DNA from: Azoarcus sp. Aa7
GTDB taxonomy: Bacteria > Pseudomonadota > Gammaproteobacteria > Burkholderiales > Rhodocyclaceae
Direction of reading: 5' to 3'
Length of the DNA stretch: 64,000 bases
Assembly (NCBI RefSeq): GCF_014822185.1
Contig: NZ_QVLR01000056.1
Location: 62,001 to 126,000 of the forward strand
The notes under the pieces are model-generated. The model was given only the letters and a program-made list of their open reading frames with translations. It was not told where the DNA came from and made no database searches. The position numbers were made by a program, and so were the translations under genes. Shown piece by piece: positions 11,580 through 43,222 of the stretch (position 1 is its first letter; every line of letters starts with the position of its first letter).

Positions 11580-13133
11580 TCACGCGGCGGCGACGTAGGC
11601 CCCCTGGCGGATGTCGGCATCGCCGCGCGACTCATGCACGATCTCGCCGGCCGCGACCTTGTCCAGGTATTCGCGGAAGTACGCGATCGCCGAGCGCTCG
11701 ATGAACTCGTAGGCGTAGCGGTCCACCGGGTCGATGCCCGCCGCCTTCAGCTCGTCGCGCGGACAGCCGCCGATCTTCGCGACGAACACCGCATGGCAGT
11801 CGTTGATCGCGCGCACCACGGTCGGCAGCGTGTCCTCGTCGCCGAAGCCGCCCTGGCAGTAGAGATCGACGCGGCGATGGCCGACGAACTTGGCCCCGCC
11901 GGTGGAGAGCTCGTACACCTGGAACTCGCTCGCATGGCCGAAGTGCTCGTTGATCTTGCCTTCGCCCTTGGTCGCGACTGCGATCAGCAGCTTGATGTCG
12001 CTTTCCGCTCCGGCGAGGCCGGCCAGTTCCTCCTGCTTCGCCGCGACCTTCGCCTGGCGCTGTTCCTCGACCAGATCCTGATAGGCCTGGCGCGTCGTCG
12101 CGTCGTACTCGACCTCCATCGCGTCGATCTTCTCGGTCGTGAACTCGGCGCTGCGGTCCTCGCCCAGCAGCCCCACCGCGTCGGCGCGGCACTGGCGGCA
12201 GTGGCGCATCATGTTCATCTCGCCCTCGCAGGCGTCCTGCAGCGCCTTCAGCTCCTGCGCGGTGGGCCCGCGCTGGCCGGTCAGGCCGAACACCGTGCCG
12301 TGCTCGGGCGCCGAGATCAGCGGCATGATGTTGTGCAGGAAGGCCCCGCGCGACTTCACCGCGCGATTCACCTCGACCAGGTGGTGGTCGTTGATGCCCG
12401 GGATCATCACCGAGTTGACCTTGCACAGGATGCCGTTGGCGGTGAGCATCTCCAGCCCCAGCAGCTGCCGTTCGCTGAGGATGCGCGCCGCCTCGATGCC
12501 TTTCCAGCGCTTGTTCTGGTAGTAGATCCACGGGTAGATGTGCTGTCCCACCTCCGGATCGACCATGTTGATGGTGATCGTCACGTGGTCCACGTTGAAG
12601 GACTTGATCGTGTCGATGTGGTCCGGCAACGTCAGGCCGTTCGTCGACAGGCACAGCTTGATGTCGGGCGCCGTCTTCGAGATCAGCTCGAAGGTCTTGA
12701 AGGTCTTTTCCGGGTTCGCGAGCGGGTCCCCCGGTCCGGCGATGCCCAGCACCGTCATCTGCGGGATCGCCGAGGCCACCGCGAGCACCTTCTTCGACGC
12801 CTGCTCCGGCGTCAGCTTCTCGCTGACGACGCCGGGGCGCGACTCGTTCGCACAGTCGTACTTGCGGTTGCAGTAGTTGCACTGGATGTTGCACGCCGGC
12901 GCCACCGCGACGTGCATGCGCGCGTAGTGGTGATGGGCTTCCTCGCTGTAGCAGGGATGGTTCTTCACCTTCTCCCACACTTCCGGCGACATGTCGGCCG
13001 GGCCGGCCGAGGAGCCGCAGCTCGATTTGCCGCTGCCGCCCGAAGTGCCGCAGCCCTTGTGTTCGGCGACCTTGTCGAGCAGTTGCTGCAGCGGTTTGAT
13101 TTCCTGCACACCAACGTAGGCGGTAGCTTCCAT
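11580..13133 (-). CDS. nifB: NifB, FeMo-cofactor core synthase (NifB-co)
   Basis: Radical-SAM enzyme that makes the [8Fe-9S-C] precursor of FeMo-co. 517 aa from ATG 13133, chosen because AGAGG lies upstream and because this start falls 44 nt after the predicted transcription start. An N-terminal Gly/Ser/Cys stretch ([16 protein letters not shown]) is followed by the radical-SAM cysteines C81, C85 and C88 (CNIQCNYC). A NifX/NafY-like C-terminal domain starts near residue 395 ([21 protein letters not shown]). It is the first gene of the long operon. Confidence 0.98.
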
Positions 13134-13186
13134 GGTGACCTCTGACGATGAATGGTGACGGGCGGAATTCCCTTCAGGCATGCATC

Positions 13187-27951: not shown

Positions 27952-29295
<1,344 letters not shown>

Positions 29296-29323
29296 CGCCT
29301 GCGTACGGGTGGGGGCGCGGCGC

Positions 29324-31204
29324 TCAGTGCAGTGCGACGTCGCCGCCCGGCGAACGGCTCCACGGCGACTGCGCCTCCCATTCGTCGAACTGTTCGGTCG
29401 GGAGCGGCCGGCCGACGAAGTGGCCCTGGGCGGTGTCGCAGCCCAGTTCCAGGAGCCGGTCCCACAGCGCCTCGCTCTCCACGCCCTCGGCGACCACGCC
29501 CAGCCCAAGGTTGTGCCCGAGTTCCACCGTCGAGTGAACGATGACCGCGGAGCCCGCGTTGGTCAGCATGCTGGTCACGAAGGAATGGTCGATCTTCAGT
29601 GAATCGACCGGCAGCTTCTGCAGGTAGCTCAGGCTGGAATAGCCGATGCCGAAGTCGTCGATGAAGAGCTCGACGCCGAGATCCTTGAGCTGCGCGAGCG
29701 TTTCCAGCGCGCCGGCAGGGTCTTCCATCAGCGCGCTTTCCGTGAGTTCGAACTGAACCAGCTCGGGCGGCAGCGCCCAGGTTGCGAACAGGCCGCTGAT
29801 GCGGTCGATCAGGCGCGGATCGCGCAGGTCCTGTGCCGACAGATTCACCGACAGCGGCCGCTTGATGCCCCTTTCGTGCCACGCATAGGACTGGCGGAAA
29901 GCGGCTTCGAGCACCCAGCGCGTCAGTGGCATGATCAGGCCGGCGTGTTCGGCGAGTGCGATGAACTCGCCGGTGGCGATCATGCCGTGCTGCGGGTGCT
30001 GCCAGCGCACCAGCGCCTCCGCGCCGCAGATCTCGCCGCTGCGGATCGCCACCTTGGGCTGGCAGTACAGCAGCAGCTCGTTCTGGTCGATCGCGTGGCG
30101 CAACTCGCTCATCAGCTCCAGCCGGCGCGTGCTCTCGCGATCTTCGGTGCCCTTGTACAGCGTGTATTTGCACGCCGTCCTGCGGGCCTGCACCGCGGCG
30201 ATCTTCGCACGCCGCAGCAGCGCCTCCGGCGTATTGCCATGCCCGGGGTACAGCGAGATGCCGATATGGGCGTGCGGATCCATCGCCAGCCCGGCAAAGA
30301 TCACCGGGTCGCACACCTCGCGCATCGCATGGTGCGCCACGCGCATCGCCGCCTCGGCGCTCGAGCGCGGCATGATGATCGCGAACTCGTCCTCGCCGAC
30401 GCGCGCGACCGACTTGTTCGGGCCGGCGATGTGCTGCAGGCGCCCGGCCATCTCGACGATCAGATGGTCGCCCTCCTGGTAGCCGAGCGTGTCGCTGATC
30501 TCCTGGAAGCGCCCGACCTTCAGCAGCAGCACCGCCATCGACTGGTTTTCCTGTTGCGCCTGTGCGATCTCCGCAGCCAGCGTCTCGCCCACCGAGCTGC
30601 GGTTGGGCAGGTCCGTCAGCGCGTCGAAGAACGCCATGTGGCGTATCGTTTCCTCCGCCTCGCGATGGCGCTCGCGCATGCGCAGCGTTCCGATGCCGAA
30701 GGCCAGGTCGTCCGCCATTTCGGCCAGGAGCCGGGTCTCGCATTCGTCGAAGGCGTCCGCTTCGGCGGCGAAGATCGTCAGGTTGCCGATCGTCTCGCCC
30801 TCGATGATCAGCGGAAAGGCGGCGAGCGACGCGTATCCGCGCCTGAAGGACTCATTGAGCGAAATCGGCAGCTGTACGTCGGGGATGTTGTGCAGGTCCT
30901 GGATGACGACCGGCTTGCCGCTGCGGATCGCCGCTGCTGTCGGACCACGCGCGTCGGGGGTGTCGCCTTCGGCCCAGCTGAAGTGGCCGAGTGTCAGGAA
31001 TCCCTCCTCGACGCCGTGGTGTGCCATCGGGCGGATGGTCCGCGCCTCGTCGTGTTCGGCGTAGCCGACCCACGCCATGCGGTAGCCGCCGAGCTCGACG
31101 ATCACCCGGCACATATCCTGCAGCAGCGTTGGTTCGTCCTGCGCCCGCAACAGCGTGCGGTTGCCCGCGCTCAGCGTGCGCAGCGCGCGTTCGGCGTAGC
31201 TCAT
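29324..31204 (-). CDS. GAF-GGDEF-EAL protein, probable c-di-GMP phosphodiesterase
   Basis: 626 aa: GAF domain (about 10-175), GGDEF domain (190-350), EAL domain (365-610). The EAL part keeps its catalytic set: GAEALVRW, VNLSAQDL, ELTES, DDFGIGYSSL and AEGVE. The GGDEF part is degenerate: signature GEDEF (270-274) and LLLKVGRF in place of the metal-binding FDLDRF motif, so it is probably not a cyclase and may bind GTP as a regulator. No membrane segment. The GAF ligand is unknown. Confidence 0.9.
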   Translation of the reverse strand: MSYAERALRTLSAGNRTLLRAQDEPTLLQDMCRVIVELGGYRMAWVGYAEHDEARTIRPMAHHGVEEGFLTLGHFSWAEGDTPDARGPTAAAIRSGKPVVIQDLHNIPDVQLPISLNESFRRGYASLAAFPLIIEGETIGNLTIFAAEADAFDECETRLLAEMADDLAFGIGTLRMRERHREAEETIRHMAFFDALTDLPNRSSVGETLAAEIAQAQQENQSMAVLLLKVGRFQEISDTLGYQEGDHLIVEMAGRLQHIAGPNKSVARVGEDEFAIIMPRSSAEAAMRVAHHAMREVCDPVIFAGLAMDPHAHIGISLYPGHGNTPEALLRRAKIAAVQARRTACKYTLYKGTEDRESTRRLELMSELRHAIDQNELLLYCQPKVAIRSGEICGAEALVRWQHPQHGMIATGEFIALAEHAGLIMPLTRWVLEAAFRQSYAWHERGIKRPLSVNLSAQDLRDPRLIDRISGLFATWALPPELVQFELTESALMEDPAGALETLAQLKDLGVELFIDDFGIGYSSLSYLQKLPVDSLKIDHSFVTSMLTNAGSAVIVHSTVELGHNLGLGVVAEGVESEALWDRLLELGCDTAQGHFVGRPLPTEQFDEWEAQSPWSRSPGGDVALH

Positions 31205-31257
31205 GACGCTCTCCTTGGCGCGTGCACCGCAACGGCTTCTGTCGGCCCGAGCGCCGT

Positions 31258-31285
31258 GCCGTCGGCGCGCGCTCGCGCCGACGGC
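31258..31285. terminator. Hairpin between dedA and the GGDEF-EAL gene
   Basis: A perfect 12-bp stem GCCGTCGGCGCG / CGCGCCGACGGC with loop CGCT. It lies 59 bp downstream of the dedA stop on the minus strand; there is no T-run, so it may be a Rho-dependent stop or a leader hairpin for the next gene. Confidence 0.5.
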
Positions 31286-31344
31286 AATTCATCCTAGTGC
31301 CCGGCGCGCGGCGGCGCAACGCTGCGCCGCCACTTACGTCACGC

Positions 31345-31986
31345 TCAGGACGCGGTCGAGCGCGCCTTCAGTGCGCCGATTACCACCGGCAGCAGCGACA
31401 GAACGATGATGCCGACGATCACCAGCGTGAGGTTCTGCTTGATCCACGGCATGTTGCCGAACCAGTAGCCGGCGAGCGTCAGCGACACGACCCAGGCCAC
31501 CGCGCCGACCACGTTGAACAGCGTGAAGCGCGCGTAGCTCATGCTGCCGATGCCCGCGACGAAGGGGGCGAAGGTGCGGAACAGCGGCAGGAAGCGCGAG
31601 ATCACCAGCGTCTTGCCGCCGTGCTTCTCGTAGTACAGGTGCGTCTTCATCAGCGCTGCCTTGTTGAAGAGACGCGAGTTTTCCCAGTGGAAGACCTTGG
31701 GGCCGAAGTAGCGGCCGATCGAGTAGTTGACGGTGTTGCCGAGTATCGCGGCGGCGGTCAGCGTCAGGATCAGCAGCGAGATGTCCATGTTGCCCAGCGC
31801 CGCCAGCGCACCGGCGATGAACAGCAGCGAGTCGCCGGGCAGGAAGGGGGTCACGACGAAGCCGGTCTCGCTGAAGATCACCGCGAACAGAATCGCGTAA
31901 ATCCAGATGCCGTAGGTGCTGACGAGCACTTCGAGGTGCTTGTCGAGGTGAAGGACGATGTCGAGCAGCGGGGCGAGAAATTCCAT
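31345..31986 (-). CDS. DedA-family membrane protein
   Basis: 213 aa, full length for DedA. Seen: FSETGFVVTPFLPGDSLLF, the cytoplasmic-side ISRFLPLFRTFAPFVAGIG re-entrant motif, and several membrane helices. DedA proteins act as undecaprenyl-phosphate or phospholipid flippases and affect the proton-motive force. The start ATG 31986 corresponds to MEFLAPLLD; upstream extension is not protein-like. Confidence 0.93.
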   Translation of the reverse strand: MEFLAPLLDIVLHLDKHLEVLVSTYGIWIYAILFAVIFSETGFVVTPFLPGDSLLFIAGALAALGNMDISLLILTLTAAAILGNTVNYSIGRYFGPKVFHWENSRLFNKAALMKTHLYYEKHGGKTLVISRFLPLFRTFAPFVAGIGSMSYARFTLFNVVGAVAWVVSLTLAGYWFGNMPWIKQNLTLVIVGIIVLSLLPVVIGALKARSTAS

Positions 31987-32141
31987 GGATGGGCGCGCAG
32001 GTGGGAAAGGCCGGAATTCTACCCGACGCCCGGGCCGGCGACCGGAATGCCGGGCGGCGGCTTCGCGAACGGATAGCGTGGCCGCGCATTCTGGCAGGCG
32101 ATTGTTGCAGGAACTGCCACGATGAATTGTCTGTTTCAAAC

Positions 32142-32170
32142 TTGCCGAGCACGGCCGCGCCTTCTATAGT
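32142..32170 (+). promoter_or_regulatory. Sigma-70-type promoter of the NarL-type two-component system
   Basis: TTGCCG (32142-32147), 17-bp spacer, TATAGT (32165-32170). Predicted start near 32177, at the foot of a long leader hairpin. Confidence 0.7.
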
Positions 32171-32178
32171 CCGCCCGC

Positions 32179-32224
32179 ACCGGCGGGCCGCGTCCGACGA
32201 TCGGGTCGGAAGGGGCCCGCCGGT
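32179..32224 (+). promoter_or_regulatory. Stable hairpin in the kinase mRNA leader
   Basis: Outer arms ACCGGCGGGCC (32179-32189) and GGCCCGCCGGT (32214-32224) enclose inner arms TCCGAC (32193-32198) and GTCGGA (32205-32210). It begins right after the predicted transcription start and ends 19 nt before the start codon, so the whole leader folds into one structure. No T-run follows. Confidence 0.6.
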
Positions 32225-32243
32225 CTTGTCTCGGGAACTCCGG

Positions 32244-34268
32244 ATGTCAGGCCTGTTACGCAAGTTCTGGATCGAGCCGCCCGTGCGCGCGGTGATGCTG
32301 CTGACCGCGCTGATGCTGGCCGTGCTGGCCGGCGGCACCGCCTTCCTGCTGTACGACATGCGCCAGCGCGAAATCGAATACGCGCGCAGCGAGATCTCGA
32401 CCCTGAGCCGCATCCTCGCGGAGCAGACGGGGCGCACGCTCGACGGTGTCGCGATGGCGCTGCGCGGCGCCCAGGACAGGCTGTCCGACAGCATCGGGAT
32501 GCAACTCGAACTCGACAGCTTCCCCGTCCAGGCGCTCCTCAAGGCCCGCGCCGAAGGCTTGCCGCAGTACTCGTCGATGTTCGTCGTCAATTCCAGCGGC
32601 GTCGTCATGAACTCGACCCTGCTCGGCACCCGTCCCGGCTTCAACGAAGCGGACCGCGACTACTTCGCGAGTCTCGTGCGCAAGGATGAAGGGCTCTTCG
32701 TCAGCCAGATGTATCGCCGCCGCTTCGACGGCGAGTGGACCTTCTACCTCAGCGCGCGCCTCGTCGATGCCGGCGGCAATTTCCGTGGCGTGGTTGCGGC
32801 GGCGGTCGTGGCGAACTATTTCGAATCGTTCTACCGCCGGCTCGACCTGCGCTTCGGCAAGCAGATCCAGCTGATCAACGCGCGCGGCAACCTGGTCGCG
32901 AGCTTCCCCAGCGACATGGACAAGGTCGACCAGCCGGTCACGGGGCTGCCTACGCTCACCGAGAAGGCGGCCGACCCGACGGGCACGATCCGCGTCACCG
33001 AGACCCTGGCCGGCGAGAACCGCTTCGTCGCCTACCACCCCGTGCCGCGCTATCCCTTCCTGATCGGCGTCGCCGTCGATCAGGACTCGGCGCTGGTGTC
33101 CTGGCCGATGAGCGCGCGTCCCATCGTGGCGGGCGCCGGCATCGTCGCCGCGCTGCTGCTGGCGGCCTCCTGCGGTGTGGTGTGGAGCATGCGCCGCCGG
33201 GCGCTGATGGCGAGCGCGCTGCAGCACAGCGAAGAGCGCCTGCGCGAGATGGTCGAGTCGGTGATGGATGCGATCGTCACGATCGACGAGGACCTGTCCG
33301 TCGTGCTGTTCAACCGCGCGGCCGAGCACCTGTTCGGCGTCCGCGCCGACGATGCGCTCGGCAAGCCCTTCGACCGCCTGCTCGGCAACGAGTCGCGTGG
33401 CGCCTATCACGCCATCGTCGGGCGGCGGCGCAACTCGGGCGAGCCGCGGCAAGCGCGCCGCGGCCGCGCCGAACTCACCGCCCGCCACGCCGACGGCCGC
33501 GAATTTCCCGCCGACGCCACCTTCTCGTCCACCGAGACCCAGGGGCGGCGTTTCCTCACCGTGGTCCTGCGCGACCTGACCGAGCGCAAGCGCATCGAGA
33601 CCCATCTGCGCGAAACCAATCGCCAGCTGCAGGAACTGTCCACCGCGCTGCAGCGGGTGCGCGAGGACGAACGGGCCGGCATCGCGCGCGAAATGCACGA
33701 CGAACTCGGGCAGCGGCTCACCGCGATCAAACTCGAACTCTCGTGGCTGGGCAGCCGCCTGCCGGGCGAGCGCGCCGACCTGCAGGACAAGGTGGGCGTC
33801 ATCAAGGAGCAGCTCAACCAGACGATCGCCTCGGTGCGGCGCATCACCTACGAGCTGCGGCCGCTGATCCTCGACGACCTCGGGCTGCGCGCAGCGATCT
33901 CGTGGCTCACGGACGATTTCTCCAAACGGACCGGCATCGAACTGGTGCTGGACCTGGACGACGACGAACCCGAGCGGGGCAGCACGGAGGCGACGACGCT
34001 GTTCCGCGTGCTGCAGGAATCGCTCACCAACGTCACGAAGTACGCGCAGGCGAGTACCGTATGGGTCGCGTGTCGGCGCGACGGCGACGACTGGCGCCTG
34101 ACCGTGCGCGACGACGGCGTCGGCTTCGTGCTCGATGCGGCGAACCAGGCAGGATTCGGCCTGCTCGGCATGCGCGAGCGCATCCGCCTGGTGCAGGGAA
34201 CTTTCGCGATCCATTCCACGCCCGGCGACGGCACGACAATCGACATCACCGTGCCCGCCCGGCAATGA
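32244..34268 (+). CDS. Membrane sensor histidine kinase, NarL-partner type
   Basis: 674 aa: membrane helix (about 16-35), periplasmic dCache-like sensor (about 40-285), second helix (about 295-315), PAS domain (about 325-450), HisKA_3 dimerisation domain with the phosphorylated His in REMHDELGQRL, and a HATPase domain (DDGVGF, GFGLLGMRERI). Probably senses a small periplasmic molecule. Its regulator follows 10 bp downstream, and the electron-transfer gene group is next. Confidence 0.92.
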   Translation: MSGLLRKFWIEPPVRAVMLLTALMLAVLAGGTAFLLYDMRQREIEYARSEISTLSRILAEQTGRTLDGVAMALRGAQDRLSDSIGMQLELDSFPVQALLKARAEGLPQYSSMFVVNSSGVVMNSTLLGTRPGFNEADRDYFASLVRKDEGLFVSQMYRRRFDGEWTFYLSARLVDAGGNFRGVVAAAVVANYFESFYRRLDLRFGKQIQLINARGNLVASFPSDMDKVDQPVTGLPTLTEKAADPTGTIRVTETLAGENRFVAYHPVPRYPFLIGVAVDQDSALVSWPMSARPIVAGAGIVAALLLAASCGVVWSMRRRALMASALQHSEERLREMVESVMDAIVTIDEDLSVVLFNRAAEHLFGVRADDALGKPFDRLLGNESRGAYHAIVGRRRNSGEPRQARRGRAELTARHADGREFPADATFSSTETQGRRFLTVVLRDLTERKRIETHLRETNRQLQELSTALQRVREDERAGIAREMHDELGQRLTAIKLELSWLGSRLPGERADLQDKVGVIKEQLNQTIASVRRITYELRPLILDDLGLRAAISWLTDDFSKRTGIELVLDLDDDEPERGSTEATTLFRVLQESLTNVTKYAQASTVWVACRRDGDDWRLTVRDDGVGFVLDAANQAGFGLLGMRERIRLVQGTFAIHSTPGDGTTIDITVPARQ

Positions 34269-34278
34269 GGGAAGCAAG

Positions 34279-34929
34279 ATGGAAAAACTCAGGGTATTGC
34301 TCGCCGACGACCACGCGATCATCCGCGACGGCCTGAAGCAGATCCTCGCCGACACGGAAGACCTCGCGGTGTGCGGTGAGGCCGCCAACGGCAGCGAGGC
34401 CCTGCAGCTCGTGCGCGAGCAGGAGTGGGACGTCATCGTGCTCGACATCTCCATGCCGGGGCGCAGCGGCCTCGATCTCATCCGCCTGATCCGTGACGAG
34501 AAACCCAAGCTCCCCATCCTGATCCTGAGCATGCATCACGAGGAGCAGTACGCGGTGCGCGCGCTGCACGCCGGTGCGTCGGGCTATCTGACCAAGGAGA
34601 GCGACGCCGACCTGCTGGTGCAAGCGATCCGCCGCGTCGCGCGTGGCGGCGTGTACGTGAGCGACACCGTCGCCCAGCTGATCGCGCGCGGCCTCATGCC
34701 CGCCGCGAGCGAGCTGCCGCACACCACCCTGTCTGACCGCGAATACCAGATCTTCCACCGCCTCGTGCTCGGGCAGGGTCTCACCGACATCGCCAACGAG
34801 CTGTCGCTCAGCGTCAAGACCATCAGCACGCACAAGACGCGCATCCTGCAGAAGATGGCGATGACGAACAGCTCCGAGCTGATCCGCTACGCCGTCGCGC
34901 ACCACCTGGTGAAGTCCACCGACGTGTAA
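34279..34929 (+). CDS. NarL/LuxR-type response regulator
   Basis: 216 aa: receiver with Asp in VIVLDISMPGRSG and Lys in LTKESD; C-terminal LuxR-type HTH (LTDIANELSLSVKTISTHKTRILQKM). Co-transcribed with the kinase. An inverted repeat of the type bound by regulators of this class sits 150 bp downstream, in front of the cytochrome cluster, suggesting it controls that cluster. Confidence 0.94.
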   Translation: MEKLRVLLADDHAIIRDGLKQILADTEDLAVCGEAANGSEALQLVREQEWDVIVLDISMPGRSGLDLIRLIRDEKPKLPILILSMHHEEQYAVRALHAGASGYLTKESDADLLVQAIRRVARGGVYVSDTVAQLIARGLMPAASELPHTTLSDREYQIFHRLVLGQGLTDIANELSLSVKTISTHKTRILQKMAMTNSSELIRYAVAHHLVKSTDV

Positions 34930-35075
34930 GCCTGCGCCGCACCCGCGCGACGCCTCCCGCTTTCTCCCCCTCTCCGGTCCCGCCGGAACCTGTCGCAATG
35001 CCGTGCAGGCCGTGGCGCGCCCGCGCGCGTCCTGCTGTTCCGCGTCATCGCACGCGGTCGCGGACCGCGGCGCAT

Positions 35076-35089
35076 TAGGAATTTTCCTA
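35076..35089. promoter_or_regulatory. Palindromic operator candidate upstream of the cytochrome cluster
   Basis: TAGGAATTTTCCTA: half-sites TAGGAA and TTCCTA around a TT spacer. It resembles inverted heptads bound by NarL-family regulators such as BvgA (TTTCCTA). A second, looser inverted repeat AAACCC-N12-GGGTTT lies at 35100-35123. Both are in the 283 bp leader of the cytochrome gene at 35213. Confidence 0.5.
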
Positions 35090-35212
35090 CACGCAATTTA
35101 AACCCTGTCCGATATATGGGTTTGCGCGAATTCGTGAAAATTCCGTCACGTCGGACCGCGTCCCCGACTGCGATCGATACGACGAAAGTCCAGCTTCAAC
35201 AGGAGAGTTCAA

Positions 35213-35560
35213 ATGCAATTCCGTCTCAACCGCGTGTCGCTGCTCGTTGCCGCCACCGCCGCGATCCTCGCCTCGTCCTCGTCCTACGCCGTGGATGCCG
35301 ACGCCGCCAAGTCGCTCGCGAAGGACAACGACTGCTTCAAGTGCCACGCCATCGACAAGACCAAGAAAGGCCCCTCGTACAAGAAGATCGCCGCCAAGTA
35401 CAAGGGCAAGGAAGCCGAAGGCTTCGAGAAGATGAAGAAGAACATCACCACCGGCCCGAAGGTGAAGCTCGAGGACGGCACCGAAGAAGAGCACAAGGTC
35501 ATCAACACCAAGAACGAGGCCGAGATCAAGAATCTGATGGAGTGGATTCTTTCGCAGTAA
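35213..35560 (+). CDS. Small monohaem c-type cytochrome
   Basis: 115 aa: Sec signal peptide (cleavage near SSYA-VDA, residue 26), then one haem site CFKCH. Overall c551/class I-like with C-terminal EIKNLMEWILSQ. Where class I cytochromes have the axial Met (an MPPN-like motif), this protein reads EEHKVINTKN, so the sixth ligand may be His. It is lysine-rich. Probably a periplasmic electron carrier for the decahaem cytochrome encoded next. A GGAG ribosome site precedes the ATG. Confidence 0.88.
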   Translation: MQFRLNRVSLLVAATAAILASSSSYAVDADAAKSLAKDNDCFKCHAIDKTKKGPSYKKIAAKYKGKEAEGFEKMKKNITTGPKVKLEDGTEEEHKVINTKNEAEIKNLMEWILSQ

Positions 35561-35577
35561 GCCGCGTGGCCTGAATC

Positions 35578-35599
35578 GCGCCGCCCGGCCGGGCGGCGC
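35578..35599 (+). terminator. GC hairpin between the cytochrome and MtrA-type genes
   Basis: GCGCCGCCC-GGCC-GGGCGGCGC: a 9-bp perfect stem with no T-run. It may reduce read-through or protect the upstream mRNA so the small cytochrome is made in excess over the downstream proteins. Confidence 0.5.
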
Positions 35600-35629
35600 G
35601 GCAATGACGTTTGGTAACAAGGGGGTAAT

Positions 35630-36634
35630 ATGAGAAAAATGCGAAGCTTGCTTGCAGTGCTGGCCTGTATCGGCAGTGTCTGCTCCGGGGCGGTGTTCGC
35701 CGCGGATGCGCCGAAGGAGGCGCCCAAGGACATCGTCCTCGCCGGTGATGCCAAATGCACGTCCTGTCACGACGAGGCGGATGCCCCCGGCGTGCTGCAC
35801 ATCGGCAAGACCAGGCACGGCACGCGCGCCGACGGCCGCACGCCGACCTGTACCGACTGCCACGGCGACAGCGACAAGCACGTGAATTACAAGGGCAGCG
35901 ACAAGCCGCCCAAGCCCGACCGTACCTTCGACAAGAAGTCGGCGACCCCCGTTGCCGAGCGCAACGCAGCCTGCCTGTCCTGTCACCAGACCGATCCCAA
36001 GCGCCACCTGTGGGCCGGCAGCACGCACGAGCGCCGTGACGTCGCCTGCAGCTCCTGCCACGACACGCACACCGCTGACGACAAGGTCCGCGACAAGCGC
36101 ACCCAGGCCGAAGTCTGTTTCGCCTGCCATAAGGAACAGCGCGCGCAGGTCAACCGTCCGTCGCACCACCCGATTCCTGAAGGCAAGATGTCCTGCTCGG
36201 ACTGCCACAACCCGCACGGCACCACCGGTCCCAAGCTGCTCGTGAAGGACAGCACCAACGCGACCTGCTACACCTGCCACGCGGAGAAGCGCGGTCCGTT
36301 CGTGCATAACCATGCTCCGGTTACCGAAGACTGCGCCAACTGCCACAACCCGCACGGCACCGTCGCCGACGCGATGCTCAAGACCCGTCCGCCCTTCCTG
36401 TGCCAGCAGTGTCATGACCCCGCCAACCACCTCGGCACGATTCCGGGTGTCGCGGCGAATACCGATCTCAGCCGCAACGTAAACGGCGTATCCATCAATT
36501 CGCCAGCGGTTCAGAACAACGGCCTCAACTCGGTCGGCGTCACCCAGGGCCGGGCCTGCCTGAACTGCCACACCGAGATCCATGGCAGCAACAGCCCGTC
36601 GGCGAGTTCGAAGGCTGCACGCTTCTGGCGTTAA
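35630..36634 (+). CDS. Decahaem c-type cytochrome, MtrA/PioA/DmsE family
   Basis: 334 aa: signal peptide (cleavage near VFAA, about residue 25), then ten CXXCH motifs (C43, C74, C115, C140, C163, C189, C213, C235, C258 and one in ACLNCH near the C-terminus). Ten haems and this length match the DmsE/MtrA family that threads through an MtrB-type barrel to move electrons across the outer membrane. AAGGGGGT precedes the ATG. The barrel gene follows 17 bp downstream. Confidence 0.95.
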   Translation: MRKMRSLLAVLACIGSVCSGAVFAADAPKEAPKDIVLAGDAKCTSCHDEADAPGVLHIGKTRHGTRADGRTPTCTDCHGDSDKHVNYKGSDKPPKPDRTFDKKSATPVAERNAACLSCHQTDPKRHLWAGSTHERRDVACSSCHDTHTADDKVRDKRTQAEVCFACHKEQRAQVNRPSHHPIPEGKMSCSDCHNPHGTTGPKLLVKDSTNATCYTCHAEKRGPFVHNHAPVTEDCANCHNPHGTVADAMLKTRPPFLCQQCHDPANHLGTIPGVAANTDLSRNVNGVSINSPAVQNNGLNSVGVTQGRACLNCHTEIHGSNSPSASSKAARFWR

Positions 36635-36651
36635 GAGTCAGGGAGAACGAA

Positions 36652-38772
36652 ATGGACAACAATCGCAATTTCAAGCGGACCGTGCTCGCGCTGGCCGTGT
36701 CGATGGCCTTCCCCGTCTCATCCGCGCTCGCGCAGGAAGACGTCGCCGAGCTGATCAGCCCGAACACCGCCGAGGCGGGCGTCAAGCTGCAGTACCTCGA
36801 CGACGTCAATCCGCTGTACCGCCAGTATCACGGCCTCAATGACGATGGCGTGAACGCCAGTGCCGACCTGAAGGTCATTCGCCGCTCCGACGAGGGCCGC
36901 TGGCTGCGCATCGAGGGCCGCGACCTCGGCCTGCGCACGCAGGAGTTCGGGGCGTCGATCGAGCAGCAGGGCGACTGGAAGATCGGTATCGATTACAACC
37001 AGATCCCGCGCTTCGCGCCGTTCGAGGTCTCCACGCGCGTCACCGGCATCGGCCACGACACGCTCAACCTCGGCACCCGCTTCGATGACAAGGACCTCAA
37101 GACCGAGCGCACCGCCACGTCCCTGACCGCCACCAAGTTCATCAGCAAGAACCTGCAGGCGAACGTCTCGTTCAAGAACGAGGACAAGAAGGGCGAGCGC
37201 CTGTTCGGCTCGAACGGCAACGTCGGTGGGTACCTCGGCCAGCTGTTCGCGCCCGAGCCGATCGACTCGAACCACAAGCAGATCGAGGCCTCGCTCGACT
37301 ACGCCACCGAGAAGTTCTACGTCTCGGGCAGCTACTACGGCAGCTTCTTCGAGAACAAGGCGGGCAAGGGACTGTTCGTCAATTACGGCACCACCGGTGG
37401 TGCGGGCAACCCCGTAGCGGTCCAGGGCACGCCGACGGCGATGAGCCCGCTGTCGCTCGCGCCCGACAACCAGGCCCACCAGTTCGCCCTGGCGGGCGGC
37501 TACAACTGGAGCCGCGACACGCGCGCGAACCTGAAGGTCAGCAAGACCTTCGCGACGCAGGACGACAGCTTCCTGCCGGCCTCCGTGGTTCCCTACCTGC
37601 CGGGCATGACCCGCAGCGACCTCGGCGGCAAGGTCGACACGACCAACGTGTTCGGGTCGCTGACTTCGCGCGTGACGGACAAGCTCAACCTGCTGGCATC
37701 GTGGGCGTACGAGGACAGGGATGACAGAACGCCGCAACTGGATTACGCGAATTACAACGGCAAAATCCTGCAGAACAACCCCGAGTCGCAGAAGACGCAT
37801 CGCGGCAAGTTCGAGGCGAGCTATCGGCTGCCCCGGGGTTACAACCTGACCGCCGGCTACGACTATGACTTCAGGAAGTACGAAGGCATGGACGAGTTGT
37901 ACCGTGACGAAATGACGGAGAACACCTACCGCATCGACGTGCGCAAGTCGTTCAGCGATACCGTGAACGGCAGCCTGACGCTCGCGCACAGCGAGCGCGA
38001 TGGTTCGCGCTGGGGCACTTCGCCAATCCTCGTGAAGACCAGCACGGGAGCGGTCGGTGAGCACTGGACGGCGCCGCTACAGTTCTCCGACCGCGAGCGG
38101 GACAAGGTCAAGTTGATGGTCGACTGGATGCCCATCGATCCGCTGTCGGTGCAGTTTGCCTACGAATACGCGCTGGACGACTACAAGACGCGCATCTTCG
38201 ATATCGGCGTGAACGAGGGGCGTTCCGAGCTGTTCTCGCTCGATGCGTCGTACCGCTTCAGCGACCGCTGGAAGGCGAACATGTGGTATTCGCACGGGAC
38301 CAACGACATCGAGCAGAACTCGTTGAACAGCACGTATGGCTCGAAGTGCGACGGGACGACGCTCGGATACACCTGCGTCCCCTGGGGCGCAGACCTCGAG
38401 CTGAGTTCGAACGCGTTCGGCGCCGGCTTCGACGGGCAGATCAGTTCGAAGTTCTCGGTCGGCGGGCAATACCTCTACAGCCGCGATGTGAACAAGTACG
38501 ACATCTCCTATGCGGATGCCGGTACGCTGTCGTCGATCCGCCAGGGCGCGGGGATTCTCCCGGACACCGAGTACACGCTGAATACCCTGCGGCTATTCGC
38601 GAAGTACGCAGTGACCAAGGCCACGGCTATTCGTTTAGACTATGTCTGGGACCGGCGCGAGCTGGACGACTACACGTGGTCGAGCTGGACCTACTCGGAC
38701 GGGACCAAGGTCCTCGTGAATCCTGATCAGATAACGCGCGTGATTGCGGTGACGCTCTCGCACGCATTCTGA
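36652..38772 (+). CDS. MtrB/PioB-family outer-membrane beta-barrel
   Basis: 706 aa: signal peptide (to SSALAQ, residue 28), then alternating amphipathic strands ending in a C-terminal aromatic (LSHAF), the outer-membrane barrel signature. The size fits MtrB/PioB. The N-terminal CXXC present in Shewanella MtrB is absent, as in Pio-type proteins. It would sheath the decahaem cytochrome. A GGGAG site precedes the ATG. Confidence 0.92.
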   Translation: MDNNRNFKRTVLALAVSMAFPVSSALAQEDVAELISPNTAEAGVKLQYLDDVNPLYRQYHGLNDDGVNASADLKVIRRSDEGRWLRIEGRDLGLRTQEFGASIEQQGDWKIGIDYNQIPRFAPFEVSTRVTGIGHDTLNLGTRFDDKDLKTERTATSLTATKFISKNLQANVSFKNEDKKGERLFGSNGNVGGYLGQLFAPEPIDSNHKQIEASLDYATEKFYVSGSYYGSFFENKAGKGLFVNYGTTGGAGNPVAVQGTPTAMSPLSLAPDNQAHQFALAGGYNWSRDTRANLKVSKTFATQDDSFLPASVVPYLPGMTRSDLGGKVDTTNVFGSLTSRVTDKLNLLASWAYEDRDDRTPQLDYANYNGKILQNNPESQKTHRGKFEASYRLPRGYNLTAGYDYDFRKYEGMDELYRDEMTENTYRIDVRKSFSDTVNGSLTLAHSERDGSRWGTSPILVKTSTGAVGEHWTAPLQFSDRERDKVKLMVDWMPIDPLSVQFAYEYALDDYKTRIFDIGVNEGRSELFSLDASYRFSDRWKANMWYSHGTNDIEQNSLNSTYGSKCDGTTLGYTCVPWGADLELSSNAFGAGFDGQISSKFSVGGQYLYSRDVNKYDISYADAGTLSSIRQGAGILPDTEYTLNTLRLFAKYAVTKATAIRLDYVWDRRELDDYTWSSWTYSDGTKVLVNPDQITRVIAVTLSHAF

Positions 38773-38786
38773 TTCACGGCAGCAAC

Positions 38787-38810
38787 GACCGGGCCGCGAT
38801 CGGCCCGGTC
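38787..38810 (+). terminator. Hairpin after the MtrB-type gene
   Basis: GACCGGGCCG-CGAT-CGGCCCGGTC: a 10-bp perfect stem 15 bp after the stop; only a weak T-rich tail (TCGTCC). Possibly a partial terminator within the electron-transfer cluster. Confidence 0.55.
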
Positions 38811-38951
38811 TCGTCCGGGGACAGGAAGTCGCCGGGCAGGGGGCCCACGAGCACATATGACGCTTGCGCGTCTGGAGATTGGCGTGCGACGTGCCGGCCC
38901 CCTTATTTTGTCTGCGGCGCGCTGGCCGCGCCGAGAAACGGGAGCAATAAC

Positions 38952-40931
38952 GTGAAAATACGCAACATTCGGGGCCTGCTGGCGGCGGTCGCGTCTGCCG
39001 CGCTGCTCTGGCCTTTGGCGGGCCATGCGGCCGGCAGCGACGCGCCAGCCACGCTCGATAACGCGACCTGTCTGCAGTGTCACCAGAGCGGGAAGCCGGA
39101 GATCAAGATCGAGGATGCCGAGGGCGAGAAGGTCGCCCTGCCGGCCGTCGATACCGCCAAGCTCGCGAAGGGTGTGCACGCGAAGCTCGACTGCGTCGCC
39201 TGCCATACCGACATCGTCGACGCGAAGGAAAAGCACGAGAAGGCGGCCAGTTCCGCGAAGCCCGACTGTGCCGGCTGCCACGAGAAGCTGTGGGACGAGG
39301 CGAAGAAGAACAACCAGGCCGCGGGCAAGGAGCGCCTGGGCATCGTCGTCGAGAACATCGCGGCCTACAAGGAGTCCTACCACGCTCGCCCGGACACGGA
39401 TTATCCCGACCGTCCGAAGGCTTACTGCAATCAGTGCCACGCGACGCACGACTTCGCCGTGCCGCCGGCCGGGACGCCCGAGCGCGAAAAATGGCGCATG
39501 ACGATCCCCGAAACCTGCGGTGCCGCCTGTCACGAGGATCAGCTCGACGACTTCACGAGCTCCGTGCATGGCGCGCTGATCGAGAAGGGCGACCCGAAGG
39601 GGGCAGTATGTACCGACTGCCACACGACGCACGAGATCCGCAATTCGTCGTCGGAGGCCTTCAAGCTCAAGAACGTGCTCGCCTGCGGCGACTGCCACCA
39701 GGAAGAACTGCACAGCTACCGCGATACCTACCACGGACAGGTGAACCGTCTCGGCTTCGTCTATACGGCCAAGTGCGCCGACTGCCACGGCAGCCACGGC
39801 ATCAAGGCGGGCGACGACCCGAAGTCGCGCGTGCATCCGGACAACCGCCTGAAGACCTGCCAGAAGTGCCACGACGACAAGAAACCGGGCATGGTGAAGG
39901 CGACGGCGGGCTTCGTGACCTTCGGCCCGCACGCCAACACGCACGATTTCGACAAGTATCCGAAGATGTGGATCGCCGGCAAGTTCATGACGGCGCTGCT
40001 GATCGGCGTGTTCGCCTTCTTCTGGCTGCACAGCGGCCTGTGGTACTACCGCGAGTGGCAGGAGCGCAAGGAACGCAAGACCGTGGCGCACGTGCGTACC
40101 GGCGCACTGGGCATCGATGAAGGCAAGCATTTCGTACGCTTCGCCCGCGGCTGGCGCATCGCGCACCTCGCGTTCGCGCTGGTGACGATGACCCTGGTGC
40201 TGACCGGCACGACGGTGATGTTCGCCGACAGCGCATGGGCGCCCACGGTTGCCGCGGCGCTGGGCGGGCCGAAGGCCATGGGCATCATCCATCGCGTGGC
40301 GGCTGCGCTCTTCGTCGGCATCTTCCTCATCCACTTCGTGTACGTGATGTCGCGCCTGCTGCGTGATCGCAAGTTCCGCTGGTTCGGGCCGGATTCGCTG
40401 ATCCCGAACTGGAAGGACCTGGCCGACTGCGTGGGCATGTTCAAGTGGTTCTTCGGCAAGGGCCCGCGGCCGCAGTTCGATCGCTGGACCTACTTCGAGA
40501 AGTTCGACTACTGGGCGGTGTTCTGGGGTGTGAACATCATCGGCTGGAGCGGCCTGATGCTGGCCTTCCCGCATGTGACGGCAAGTTTCCTGCCGGGCTG
40601 GGTGTTCAACGTCGGCACCCTGGTGCATGGCGAGGAAGCCTTCCTTGCGGCGGTGTTCCTCTTCACGGTGCACTTCTTCAACAACCACTTCCGTCCCGAC
40701 AAGCTGCCGCCGCCGGACGTGGTGATGTTCACCGGCACGCAGTCGCTGGAAGAGTTCAGCCGCGAGCACCCGGCGCACTACCAGCGCCTGGTGGAGTCCG
40801 GCGAACTGGAGAAGTACCTGGTCGATGCGCCGTCGCGCCAGCTGCATGCCGGCTCGGTGATCCTCGGCCTCACGCTGATCACCGTCGGCCTCGTGCTGCT
40901 GGTGCTGGTGGTGACCGGTTTCTTCAGCTGA
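38952..40931 (+). CDS. Nine-haem cytochrome c fused to a membrane cytochrome b domain (CbcL-like)
   Basis: 659 aa. Signal peptide (to about 27); a periplasmic multihaem part with eight CXXCH (C40, C81, C106, C159, C220, C245, C275, C303) plus one CX3CH at C189; then six membrane helices (about 341-362, 402-422, 446-466, 520-540, 563-580, 634-657) with His residues for b-haems, as in HydC/FdnI-type cytochromes b. The layout matches Geobacter CbcL, an inner-membrane quinol oxidase used for low-potential extracellular electron transfer. It probably feeds the periplasmic cytochromes encoded upstream. GTG start with GGGAG upstream. Confidence 0.9.
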   Translation: MKIRNIRGLLAAVASAALLWPLAGHAAGSDAPATLDNATCLQCHQSGKPEIKIEDAEGEKVALPAVDTAKLAKGVHAKLDCVACHTDIVDAKEKHEKAASSAKPDCAGCHEKLWDEAKKNNQAAGKERLGIVVENIAAYKESYHARPDTDYPDRPKAYCNQCHATHDFAVPPAGTPEREKWRMTIPETCGAACHEDQLDDFTSSVHGALIEKGDPKGAVCTDCHTTHEIRNSSSEAFKLKNVLACGDCHQEELHSYRDTYHGQVNRLGFVYTAKCADCHGSHGIKAGDDPKSRVHPDNRLKTCQKCHDDKKPGMVKATAGFVTFGPHANTHDFDKYPKMWIAGKFMTALLIGVFAFFWLHSGLWYYREWQERKERKTVAHVRTGALGIDEGKHFVRFARGWRIAHLAFALVTMTLVLTGTTVMFADSAWAPTVAAALGGPKAMGIIHRVAAALFVGIFLIHFVYVMSRLLRDRKFRWFGPDSLIPNWKDLADCVGMFKWFFGKGPRPQFDRWTYFEKFDYWAVFWGVNIIGWSGLMLAFPHVTASFLPGWVFNVGTLVHGEEAFLAAVFLFTVHFFNNHFRPDKLPPPDVVMFTGTQSLEEFSREHPAHYQRLVESGELEKYLVDAPSRQLHAGSVILGLTLITVGLVLLVLVVTGFFS

Positions 40932-41245
40932 TCGCAGTCTGAAGGTGTGACGAAGAAGGGGAGGGCGACCTCCCCTTTTTTCGTCCACGGCCCGGCGCGC
41001 AAGGCGCCACCGGGCGGTCTTCGGGCCGTCGCGACGGTGTTACGGCCGGTTGTTACGATTCACTACATTTCACAAACAGTTGCGCAAACATGGCTTGCGA
41101 GACTGCACGCACACCAAAGCGCGAGCGGCAGCCACGATGTTGCCGCCGACGCTGTGGCGCACACGATTGCGCCGAATCCCGGACCCGATAACGACAAACA
41201 AGGGCCGGGCGGAGACGAAGGATCAAACCAAAGGAGGAGGTGGGT
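40932..41245. other. Gap between the cytochrome cluster and the CoA-ligase/ABC cluster
   Basis: 314 bp: the terminator above, then a leader for the acyl-CoA synthetase gene with AAGGAGGAGG (41231-41240) as a strong ribosome site. I see no convincing promoter. Confidence 0.5.
40956..40981 (+). terminator. Terminator of the electron-transfer cluster
   Basis: AAGGGGAGG-GCGA-CCTCCCCTT followed by a T-run: a strong Rho-independent terminator 25 bp after the stop codon. Confidence 0.95.
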
Positions 41246-43222
41246 ATGTCCGACACCAACGGGCAAGCCGCGCAAACGGTCGCGCTGGATACTTTTCCGC
41301 GGCTGCTGATGCATCATGCCGCGGTGCGGCCCGGTCGGCCGGCGATGCGCGAGAAGGAATTCGGCATCTGGCAGACCTACAGCTGGGCCGATGTCGCACG
41401 CAGCGTCCGGGCAATCGCTTGCGGCCTCGCCGAGCTCGGCTTCAAGCGTGGCGACCGGCTTGCCATCATCGGCGACAACCGTCCGCGCCTGTACTGGTCG
41501 GTGGCGGCCTGCCAGTGCCTCGGTGGCATCCCGGTGATGCTGTACCAGGACGCGGTCGCGCAGGAAATGACCTACGTGCTGGAGGACGCCGAGATCAAGT
41601 TCGCCGTCGTCGAGGATCAGGAACAGGTCGACAAGATGCTCGAGATCCTGCCCGACGTGCCCTTCCTCGAGCACGTGATCTACGACGACCCGCGCGGCCT
41701 GCGCCACTACAGCCAGCCGCTGCTGAAGGGGCTGGACGAGCTGCAGGAGATGGGCAGCATCCACGATCGCAACCACACCGATTTCCTCGACGCGGAGATC
41801 GACAAGGGCGCGAGCGACGACATCTCGGTGATGCTGTACACCTCCGGTACCACCGGCAAGCCGAAGGGCGTTTGCCAGACTCACGCGGCCTTCATCGCCG
41901 CGGCGACCGGGGCGACGGGATTCGACAAGCTCACCGACCGGGAGGACATCCTGTCCTACCTGCCGATGGCCTGGGTCGGCGACCACCTGTTCTCGTTCGC
42001 GCAGGCGACGGTCGCAGGCTTCACGATCAATTGCCCGGAGTCGGGCGACACCGTGATGACTGACCTGCGCGAGATCGGCCCGACCTATTACTTCGCGCCG
42101 CCGCGGGTGTTCGAGAACCTGCTGACGCAGGTCATGATCCGCATGGAGGACGCAAGCGCGTTGAAGCGCAAGCTGTTCGCCCACTTCATGGACGTCGCCC
42201 GCCGCTGCGGCGCCGACATCCTCGACGGCAAGCCGGTGTCGGGAGGCGACCGCCTGCAGTACTGGCTCGGCAACCTGCTGATCTACGGCCCGCTGAAGAA
42301 CGTGCTGGGCATGAGCCGCATCCGCGTCGCCTACACCGCGGGCGCGGCGATCGGCCCGGATCTCTTCCGCTTCTACCGTTCGATCGGCGTGAACCTGAAG
42401 CAACTCTATGGCCAGACCGAGACCTGCGCCTACGTGTGCCTGCAGCCCGACGGCCAGATCAAGCTCGATTCGGTCGGCAAGCCCGCGCCCTTCGTCGAGG
42501 TGAAGCTCGCCGGCAACGGCGAGATCCTGGTGAAGGGGCCGATGCTGCTGAAGGCCTACTACAAGCGCCCGGACGCGACCGCCGAGTCGATCAACGCCGA
42601 GGGCTACTTCATGACCGGCGATGCGGGCTACTTCGACGAGGACGGCCACCTGAAGATCATCGACCGCGCCAAGGACGTCGGCAAGCTCGCGACCGGCTCG
42701 ATGTTCGCGCCCAACTACATCGAGAACAAGCTCAAGTTTTTCCAGCACATCAAGGAAGCGGTCGCCTTCGGCAACGGCCGCGACTGCGTCACCGCCTTCA
42801 TCAACATCGACCTCGAAGCGGTCGGCAACTGGGCCGAGCGGCGCGGGCTCGCGTACTCGGGCTACACGGACCTGGCCTCGCAGTCGGCGGTGTACGAGCT
42901 GATCCGCGACTGCGTCGAGAAGGTGAACGCCGACCTCGCGGCCGATCCGCAGATGAGCGGCTCGCAGATCAAGCGCTTCCTGATCCTGCACAAGGAACTC
43001 GACGCCGATGACGGCGAGCTGACGCGTACGCGCAAGGTGCGCCGCAACTTCATCGCCGAACGCTACGCGGTGCTGATCGAGGCGCTGTTCGAAGGGAAGG
43101 CGGCGCAGCACATCGAGACGGTGGTGAAGTACGAGGACGGGCGCGAGGGCCGCATCAGCGCCGACCTGCGTATCGAGGAAGCGAAGACCTACGCGCCGCA
43201 GGCGGCGAAGCGCGCGGCGTGA
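41246..43222 (+). CDS. AMP-forming acyl-CoA synthetase
   Basis: 658 aa, in the size range of long-chain-type synthetases. Seen: P-loop YTSGTTGKPKG (about residue 197), YGQTETCAYV (A5), YFMTGDAGYFDEDGHL and IDRAKD (A7-A8). ATG 41246 follows AAGGAGGAGG. It is the first gene of an operon with a branched-chain-type ABC importer and is close to a second CoA ligase, so it probably activates the imported acid. The substrate cannot be read from the sequence. Confidence 0.92.
   Translation: MSDTNGQAAQTVALDTFPRLLMHHAAVRPGRPAMREKEFGIWQTYSWADVARSVRAIACGLAELGFKRGDRLAIIGDNRPRLYWSVAACQCLGGIPVMLYQDAVAQEMTYVLEDAEIKFAVVEDQEQVDKMLEILPDVPFLEHVIYDDPRGLRHYSQPLLKGLDELQEMGSIHDRNHTDFLDAEIDKGASDDISVMLYTSGTTGKPKGVCQTHAAFIAAATGATGFDKLTDREDILSYLPMAWVGDHLFSFAQATVAGFTINCPESGDTVMTDLREIGPTYYFAPPRVFENLLTQVMIRMEDASALKRKLFAHFMDVARRCGADILDGKPVSGGDRLQYWLGNLLIYGPLKNVLGMSRIRVAYTAGAAIGPDLFRFYRSIGVNLKQLYGQTETCAYVCLQPDGQIKLDSVGKPAPFVEVKLAGNGEILVKGPMLLKAYYKRPDATAESINAEGYFMTGDAGYFDEDGHLKIIDRAKDVGKLATGSMFAPNYIENKLKFFQHIKEAVAFGNGRDCVTAFINIDLEAVGNWAERRGLAYSGYTDLASQSAVYELIRDCVEKVNADLAADPQMSGSQIKRFLILHKELDADDGELTRTRKVRRNFIAERYAVLIEALFEGKAAQHIETVVKYEDGREGRISADLRIEEAKTYAPQAAKRAA

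Follow-up and report, generated by a model that had tools for sequence, protein, structure and literature searches.

What role do Mto-type electron conduits play outside the known iron oxidisers? The question is raised by a stretch of 64,000 nucleotides in the genome of Azoarcus sp. Aa7 (5.39 Mb, 107 contigs), G000:C56:62001-126000, which we call the window. A cluster on its + strand (32244-40985) encodes, in this order, a histidine kinase, a response regulator, a monohaem cytochrome c, a decahaem cytochrome, an MtrB/PioB porin and a nine-haem/cytochrome b fusion. The original prediction, made from the sequence alone, had placed the fusion, the carrier, the decahaem protein and the barrel behind a two-component system and before a strong terminator, and motifs, profiles and hairpin folding bear this out. 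We judge it quite probable that the cytochrome and porin genes form an operon of the Mto type for extracellular electron transfer (mtoD-mtoA-mtoB-mtoC), controlled by a two-component system of its own. With somewhat less assurance, we favour a broader reading in which a dedicated sensor-regulator and the operator TAGGAANNTTCCTA control a subset of MtrAB conduits with an exchanged inner module, related regulators and the same operator serve nosZ-type operons, and the five conduits of the host are separately chosen and sensed. Loci, genomes and contigs are given our own L, G and C numbers, and the papers cited are drawn on in excerpt.

Composition of the probable mto operon

In order to identify the parts of the operon, we compared each product with profiles and solved structures. 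The monohaem protein matched MtoD of Sideroxydans lithotrophicus (PDB 4xxl) at E 1.2e-31. It has two histidines in total, and the second, beyond the haem motif, aligns with a histidine of MtoD, for which His/His ligation is described in structure 4XXL (PMC4412085). It is probably a bis-His carrier of the MtoD type. The decahaem cytochrome, with 10 CXXCH motifs, scored 281 bits against TIGR03508 (cut-off 192) and matched chain A of 6r2q at E 1.4e-67. The porin scored 455 bits against PF11854 and 361 bits against TIGR03509 (cut-off 240), and matched chain B of the same entry, which we take to be the Shewanella MtrCAB complex, at E 3.4e-36.

The fusion carries eight CXXCH motifs and one CXXXCH, giving nine c-haem sites ahead of a cytochrome b domain. 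The predicted count of nine haems was right, the ninth motif being CX3CH (CGAACH, residue 189) rather than CXXCH; its two cysteines and its histidine do not vary among 27 aligned sequences, that of the window included, and in some of these the spacing is CX2CH. Nine further N-terminal histidines (H76, 95, 144, 166, 206, 227, 261, 282 and 327) are invariant in the same alignment, as would be expected if all haems were bis-His. The cytochrome b domain scored 25.8 bits with PF01292, below the cut-off of 30.1, and 29.1 bits with TIGR01583, far below its cut-off, and a PDB sequence search with the whole of MtoC found no relative (best E 0.095). An AlphaFold model built on the 27-sequence alignment (mean pLDDT 74.6, pTM 0.64) has six long membrane helices, and its best PDB match was FdnI of formate dehydrogenase N (1kqf_C; TM 0.70 by target; Foldseek E 1.5e-3, with no match below 1e-3). 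Invariant histidines 360, 405, 447, 461, 559 and 574 lie in the helices of the model and could be ligands of haem b. CbcL is described as having six helices, two b-haems and nine c-haems that are all bis-His (PMC9129911). With nine predicted bis-His c-haems and a predicted six-helix di-haem b domain, the modelled fusion fits the CbcL/MtrH/MtoC family. Its closest named homologues, those of Aromatoleum toluolicum (91%) and A. toluvorans (89%), stand in an identical gene order, and on these grounds the host is probably itself an Aromatoleum.

The four genes that mark an Mto cluster are all present: a decahaem MtrA-family cytochrome, an adjoining MtrB/PioB porin, an MtoD monohaem protein and MtoC, a nonahaem cytochrome b fusion. 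Within the cytochrome operon the genes are spaced by 69, 17 and 179 bases. The hairpin after mtoC folds at -31.4 kcal/mol (z -5.4), with 0 of 200 shuffles equally good, and was not listed by a simple terminator consensus scan. A sigma-70 scan gave nothing near mtoD, its sole match (1.2 expected) being at 32142, before the kinase. These parts, their order, the haem-site counts, the fold of the membrane domain and the terminator come directly from sequence or model.

Relation to published gene sets

The original prediction had described a CbcL-type module joined to an MtrAB conduit as a little-described mixture. The joining stands. The novelty does not, for the same gene set has been published as mtoABCD (PMC6295460, PMC5566968), and the window cluster is of the Mto type, an already known kind of gene set. 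CbcL, MtrH and MtoC are reported to form one family, present in 15 phyla; mtoC is listed together with mtoA, mtoB and mtoD in Dechloromonas aromatica RCB and Gallionella capsiferriformans ES-2, and in 7 species mtrH/mtoC is found in one cluster with mtrAB/mtoAB (PMC6295460). A second account describes MtoC as nonahaem and gives the D. aromatica operon the name mtoABCD (PMC5566968). Compared via these descriptions, the D. aromatica and G. capsiferriformans sets have the same four parts as the window, with a nonahaem MtoC. None of the terms 'two-component', 'histidine kinase' or 'response regulator' appears in PMC6295460, PMC5566968 or PMC13390432, and two-component control of mto clusters was not found in print in a limited search of open-licence papers.

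Other known systems share fewer parts. CbcL of Geobacter sulfurreducens has, by description, nine c-haems and six membrane helices, and the window model has an FdnI-like b domain; the published identity of MtoC and CbcL is about 35% (PMC6295460). The mto cluster of Sideroxydans lithotrophicus ES-1 has MtoD, MtoA and MtoB in common with the window, but a tetrahaem NapC-type CymA (ImoA) where the window has MtoC; similar content occurs on contig C57 of the Azoarcus genome itself. Shewanella MtrCAB shares MtrA and MtrB, but possesses MtrC and uses CymA as its quinol module, whereas no MtrC was recognised in the window. As predicted, no outer-surface MtrC was recognised: across the genome the best match to TIGR03507 (MtrC/OmcA) reached 27.1 bits, against a cut-off of 209.3. 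PioABC of Rhodopseudomonas palustris has a conduit of decahaem cytochrome and porin, as in the window, with the iron-sulphur carrier PioC in place of MtoD and MtoC.

We then looked at how widely this gene order occurs in related loci, as had been proposed. The fusion had matches at E<=0.001 in 58 of 199 genomes of the family, the weakest being short partial stretches. In 41 loci that were read, namely the window and 40 of the places with a fusion match, the order monohaem-mtrA-mtrB-cbcL was present 14 times (13 by script, plus L068, counted because its mtrB, missed by the gene caller, appears in the MtrB match list). In a set of 80 named loci, which overlaps the former in some records, the order occurred in 13, and 36 contained a decahaem gene of the mtrA type at some position. 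Elsewhere the fusion is paired with a monohaem cytochrome alone, with a haem protein of the ethylbenzene-dehydrogenase family or with other genes; because of these partners outside MtrAB, it looks like a general quinone module not tied to that conduit.

The two-component system and its palindrome

The palindrome TAGGAATTTTCCTA lies in the 283 bases between the response regulator, whose best solved relative is NarL (1a04, E 2.1e-29), and mtoD. At no more than one mismatch it occurs once in the window, with 0.01 occurrences expected. We compared regulator and palindrome in 112 distinct loci collected solely with the fusion protein as query, a set that excludes any cbcL sharing its last 200 residues with an earlier one, the second copy in L050 and the four loci of the own genome without cbcL. 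A kinase and a regulator were present in 16 of the 112 cbcL-type loci. All 16 also have mtrA, and all 16 carry TAGGAANNTTCCTA (<=1 mismatch) within 8 kb upstream of the fusion. In contrast, among the 96 loci without the two-component system the palindrome was found in none and mtrA in 31. Fisher's test gave 1e-19 for all 112 loci and 7e-13 among mtrA-bearing loci, with kinship not corrected. The palindrome ranked first of 36,864 hexamer-and-gap palindromes, and its exact form occurred in 11/16 versus 0/96. The 16 positive loci include Aromatoleum, Dechloromonas hankyongensis, Pseudothauera nasutitermitis and metagenome-assembled genomes named Gallionellaceae, Rhodocyclales and Comamonadaceae. 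When loci were counted by mtrA instead, the palindrome was present in 22 of 27 with the two-component system and in 0 of 40 without it. This count includes loci fetched for their kinase or palindrome, the fusion-gathered test being the cleaner one, and it omits five of 72 distinct mtrA genes (no two-component system, less than 5 kb upstream), among them that of the palindrome-bearing L199.

Kinase matches at E<=1e-60 were found in 24 of the 199 family genomes (own included), 18 of which have a single match of at least 398 bits. For seven of these 18 the locus was already in the 112-locus set, and the other 11 were fetched; mtrA was adjacent in 9 of the 11 and the palindrome present at <=1 mismatch in 6. 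Those lacking an adjacent mtrA were L192 and L193, the latter of which stops 0.9 kb past the regulator. Extended to the whole class (369 genomes, about three candidates scored per genome, E<=1e-90), the kinase search returned the own genome only.

Alignment of 17 operator sites from 16 loci showed a partly conserved downstream region ending in CCGAT at +33 to +37. If the CCGAT block were a -10 region, the palindrome would be centred near -40, a usual position for an activator. The palindrome resembles the inverted heptads that serve as sites for regulators of the NarL family, BvgA among them. The recognition-helix stretch is common to all 39 regulators of at least 50% identity, 6 of which lie more than 4.5 kb from any palindrome, and differs in four regulators of 28-40% identity; this comparison is no separate proof that regulator and palindrome belong together.

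Exact copies of the palindrome number 26, spread over 21 of the 199 genomes. By reading, 11 of these sites are at MtrAB or monohaem genes, 9 before nosZ-like operons and 6 elsewhere. A related regulator, 52-57% identical, is present in eight of the nine nosZ-like loci (L204, L205, L207-L213); the three scanned with Pfam gave nos_propeller in L204, NosD in L205 and a two-domain cytochrome c in L208. Since the palindrome also stands between related regulators (56% in L204, 52% in L208) and nosZ-like operons, its distribution appears to track the regulator and not the cytochromes. In the kinase of L204 a Tll0287-like domain is accompanied by a CXXCH motif.

Several observations weigh against regulation through this site. 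A reversed control pattern occurs 12 times against 26 in the family genomes and, at <=1 mismatch, 5 times against the single palindrome in the own genome, so that location, not abundance, carries the regulator case. Five of the 16 positive loci fall in one genus, and the statistics ignore kinship. The kinase-regulator pair is missing from 31 of the 47 mtrA loci of the 112-locus set. The best site has 2 mismatches in L187 and L194, 4 in L190 and L196 and 5 in L193, and L192 has the kinase and sites with no mtrA within 19 kb. The genome of L187 has an exact palindrome before a second mto cluster (L199). In these sequences regulator and palindrome are linked; the regulator would bind the site and activate the operon.

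Exchange of the inner-membrane module

The fused MtoC lies beside kinase, regulator and conduit in the window, L067-L071, L074, L086, L087, L089 and others. In L198 (by Pfam) its place is taken by a heptahaem protein and a separate protein of the cytochrome b561 type, as it is in L190 and L195, judged from size and haem count; in L189 the contig breaks off after the heptahaem protein. L196 and L197 have a tetrahaem CymA-type protein beside kinase, regulator and conduit, no inner module was recognised in L191, and L194 is cut by a contig end. Differing inner-membrane modules beside mtoAB have been described before (PMC5566968); module variation behind one regulator is what is added here. Because related regulators share the operator ahead of nosZ-type operons, one regulator subfamily may govern alternative electron routes.

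Other conduits in the genome

The genome holds five full-length MtrB matches, each adjoining a ten-haem MtrA, with identities among the five of 33-56% for MtrA and 22-37% for MtrB. Only the window cluster has the palindrome. MtrB was matched in 65 of the 199 family genomes, and five separate full-length copies were seen only in the own genome and G167, of the same genus; G006 and G183 reach five only by counting partial matches. With five conduits in one host, one of them next to a chemoreceptor whose c-haem motif is apparently periplasmic, the conduits may well be chosen and sensed separately. That chemoreceptor (C14, L006:6791-8452, + strand; HAMP, MCPsignal), which is conserved in L220, has a CTECH motif in its N-terminal, apparently periplasmic part; directly before monohaem-mtrA-mtrB, it is possibly a redox-taxis receptor for that conduit. 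On C92 (L009:5643-9338, - strand) a divergent MtrA/MtrB pair, kept in two further genomes of the genus (L214, L215), has as its neighbours genes for ketoacyl synthases, for a short-chain reductase and an MMPL exporter, and for a LolA-like protein; the setting resembles a cluster of the aryl-polyene type.

Electron flow and alternative explanations

The electron path through the cluster that we infer is as follows. MtoB would form an outer-membrane sheath with MtoA as a ten-haem wire inside, and MtoC, by way of a cytochrome b domain resembling FdnI, would connect the quinone pool with a periplasmic arm of nine haems, with MtoD as a periplasmic carrier. The kinase would sense a signal via its dCache domain, the phosphorylated regulator would bind TAGGAANNTTCCTA ahead of mtoD and turn the operon on, and transcription would end at the hairpin after mtoC. 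A published result weighs against this placing of MtoD: in Sideroxydans, MtoD (+155 mV) is reported to interact with neither MtoA nor the inner-membrane ImoA, and is proposed to feed a high-potential acceptor (PMC13390432). On that report, the monohaem protein of the window need not sit between MtoA and MtoC, and MtoC may meet MtoA by another route.

In which direction electrons flow depends in part on the quinone. No menD match rose over the cut-off in the genome (six weaker matches), and MqnA and MqnD gave no match; with no menaquinone pathway recognised, the quinone is probably ubiquinone, whose potential is near +0.1 V. For the same reason inward flow, from Fe(II), reduced minerals or humics to respiration, or outward flow to high-potential acceptors appears more likely than reduction of low-potential Fe(III) oxides, a view that we hold loosely. 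Sideroxydans, likewise without menaquinone genes, has been read as an electron importer (PMC13390432). Outward respiration is a possibility that we take seriously but do not expect: quinol would be oxidised by MtoC and the electrons passed on by MtoAB to Fe(III), Mn(IV), humics or an anode, the role ascribed to CbcL in Geobacter and to MtrH in Rhodoferax. CbcL and MtrH do belong to Fe(III) reducers (PMC6295460), and no CO2-fixing RuBisCO was recognised, which leaves lithoautotrophy by RuBisCO with no obvious basis. However, no MtrC scored over the cut-off, low-potential acceptors would be hard to reach when no menaquinone genes are recognised, and Fe(II) oxidisers are reported to carry this gene set as well (PMC5566968).

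The conduit might instead serve a reductase of a soluble acceptor such as DMSO or iodate, in the manner of DmsEF, and no mineral at all. The matching NCBI family bears the name DmsE family and an iodate-reducing Aromatoleum is mentioned (PMC11302344), but no DmsA/DmsB-type reductase was found in the cluster and no molybdoenzyme among the ten proteins scanned (27952-43222), a weak argument, as the neighbours in other genomes are only partly identified; we consider such a role unlikely. It is just as improbable, in our view, that palindrome and two-component system accompany the cluster by shared descent only and that the site has some other function. The uncorrected kinship would allow it, as would the palindrome loci without mtrA (L192, L200, L201, L203), yet the same site recurs between related regulators and nosZ-like operons. 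We retain the reading of an Mto-type operon under its own two-component system.

Surroundings and related loci

Coordinates and the gene content of the other conduits are collected in Table 1. Downstream of the terminator lie an acyl-CoA ligase gene and an ABC-transporter ATPase-like frame (the latter by eye), and on the 5' side the opposite strand carries genes for a DedA protein and a GGDEF-EAL protein; the neighbours scanned were glutamate dehydrogenase, GGDEF-EAL, DedA and acyl-CoA ligase. The organism had been called nitrogen-fixing, with which frames 3-776 and 11580-13181 agree, resembling NifH and NifB by eye.

Table 1. Features of the mto locus (window positions) and gene order of the other MtrAB conduits
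Feature	Position	Strand	Basis or content
Sensor histidine kinase	32244..34268	+	Pfam dCache_1, PAS, HisKA_3, HATPase_c; ATG at 32244
Response regulator, NarL/LuxR type	34279..34929	+	Response_reg + GerE (receiver, LuxR-type HTH)
Putative operator TAGGAA-N2-TTCCTA	35076..35089	.	124 bp 5' of mtoD start
Partly conserved block ending CCGAT, possibly promoter core	35098..35113	+	operator sites side by side; promoter role presumed
MtoD-type monohaem cytochrome c	35213..35560	+	one CXXCH; PDB 4xxl match
MtoA/MtrA-type decahaem cytochrome	35630..36634	+	10 CXXCH; TIGR03508; 6r2q chain A
MtoB/MtrB-type outer-membrane porin	36652..38772	+	PF11854; TIGR03509; 6r2q chain B
Perfect 9-bp inverted repeat, mtoB-mtoC gap, without T-run	38787..38810	+	read from sequence
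MtoC/CbcL-type fusion, 659 residues	38952..40931	+	nine c-haem sites + cytochrome b domain
Intrinsic terminator	40950..40985	+	hairpin folding vs shuffles
C57 conduit			monohaem-tetrahaem-mtrA-mtrB
C14 conduit			chemoreceptor-monohaem-mtrA-mtrB
C60 conduit			monohaem-mtrA-mtrB
C92 conduit			mtrA-mtrB among ketoacyl-synthase, MMPL, LolA-like genes

A second MtoC-type fusion of the genome, 55% identical, lies on contig C10 (L066:8230-11638, - strand). It adjoins a haem protein of the ethylbenzene-dehydrogenase family, and proteins that look alike by eye are encoded ahead of the fusion in L075, L078, L083, L053 and L052. In L047, L050, L051, L130, L136, L138 and L157, three genes (about 850-960, 265-270 and 235-256 residues) are followed by a monohaem cytochrome or the fusion, and perhaps encode a three-subunit enzyme that the fusion serves. 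L050 (6515-16899, + strand) has two fusion genes with monohaem cytochromes on both sides of each, and between the fusions a 591-residue gene, a response regulator-like gene and a seven-haem protein. RuBisCO autotrophy was considered and rejected: the single RuBisCO-type match in the genome reads, by eye, like a RuBisCO-like protein. Its gene (L224:1489-2778, - strand) adjoins a frame that resembles, also by eye, a four-carbon sugar-acid kinase.

Discussion

Our analysis adds to the original prediction the palindrome, the recurring tie between two-component system and conduit, and four other MtrAB pairs in the same genome. These bear on the role of Mto-type conduits outside the known iron oxidisers. 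As judged by the palindrome, the regulator has one target in the genome, and the inducing signal should reveal the natural electron donor or acceptor of the conduit. With the palindrome as a marker, operons of the regulon can be picked out in genome sequences, and a single host with five conduits allows different inner-membrane partners to be compared in a natural setting.

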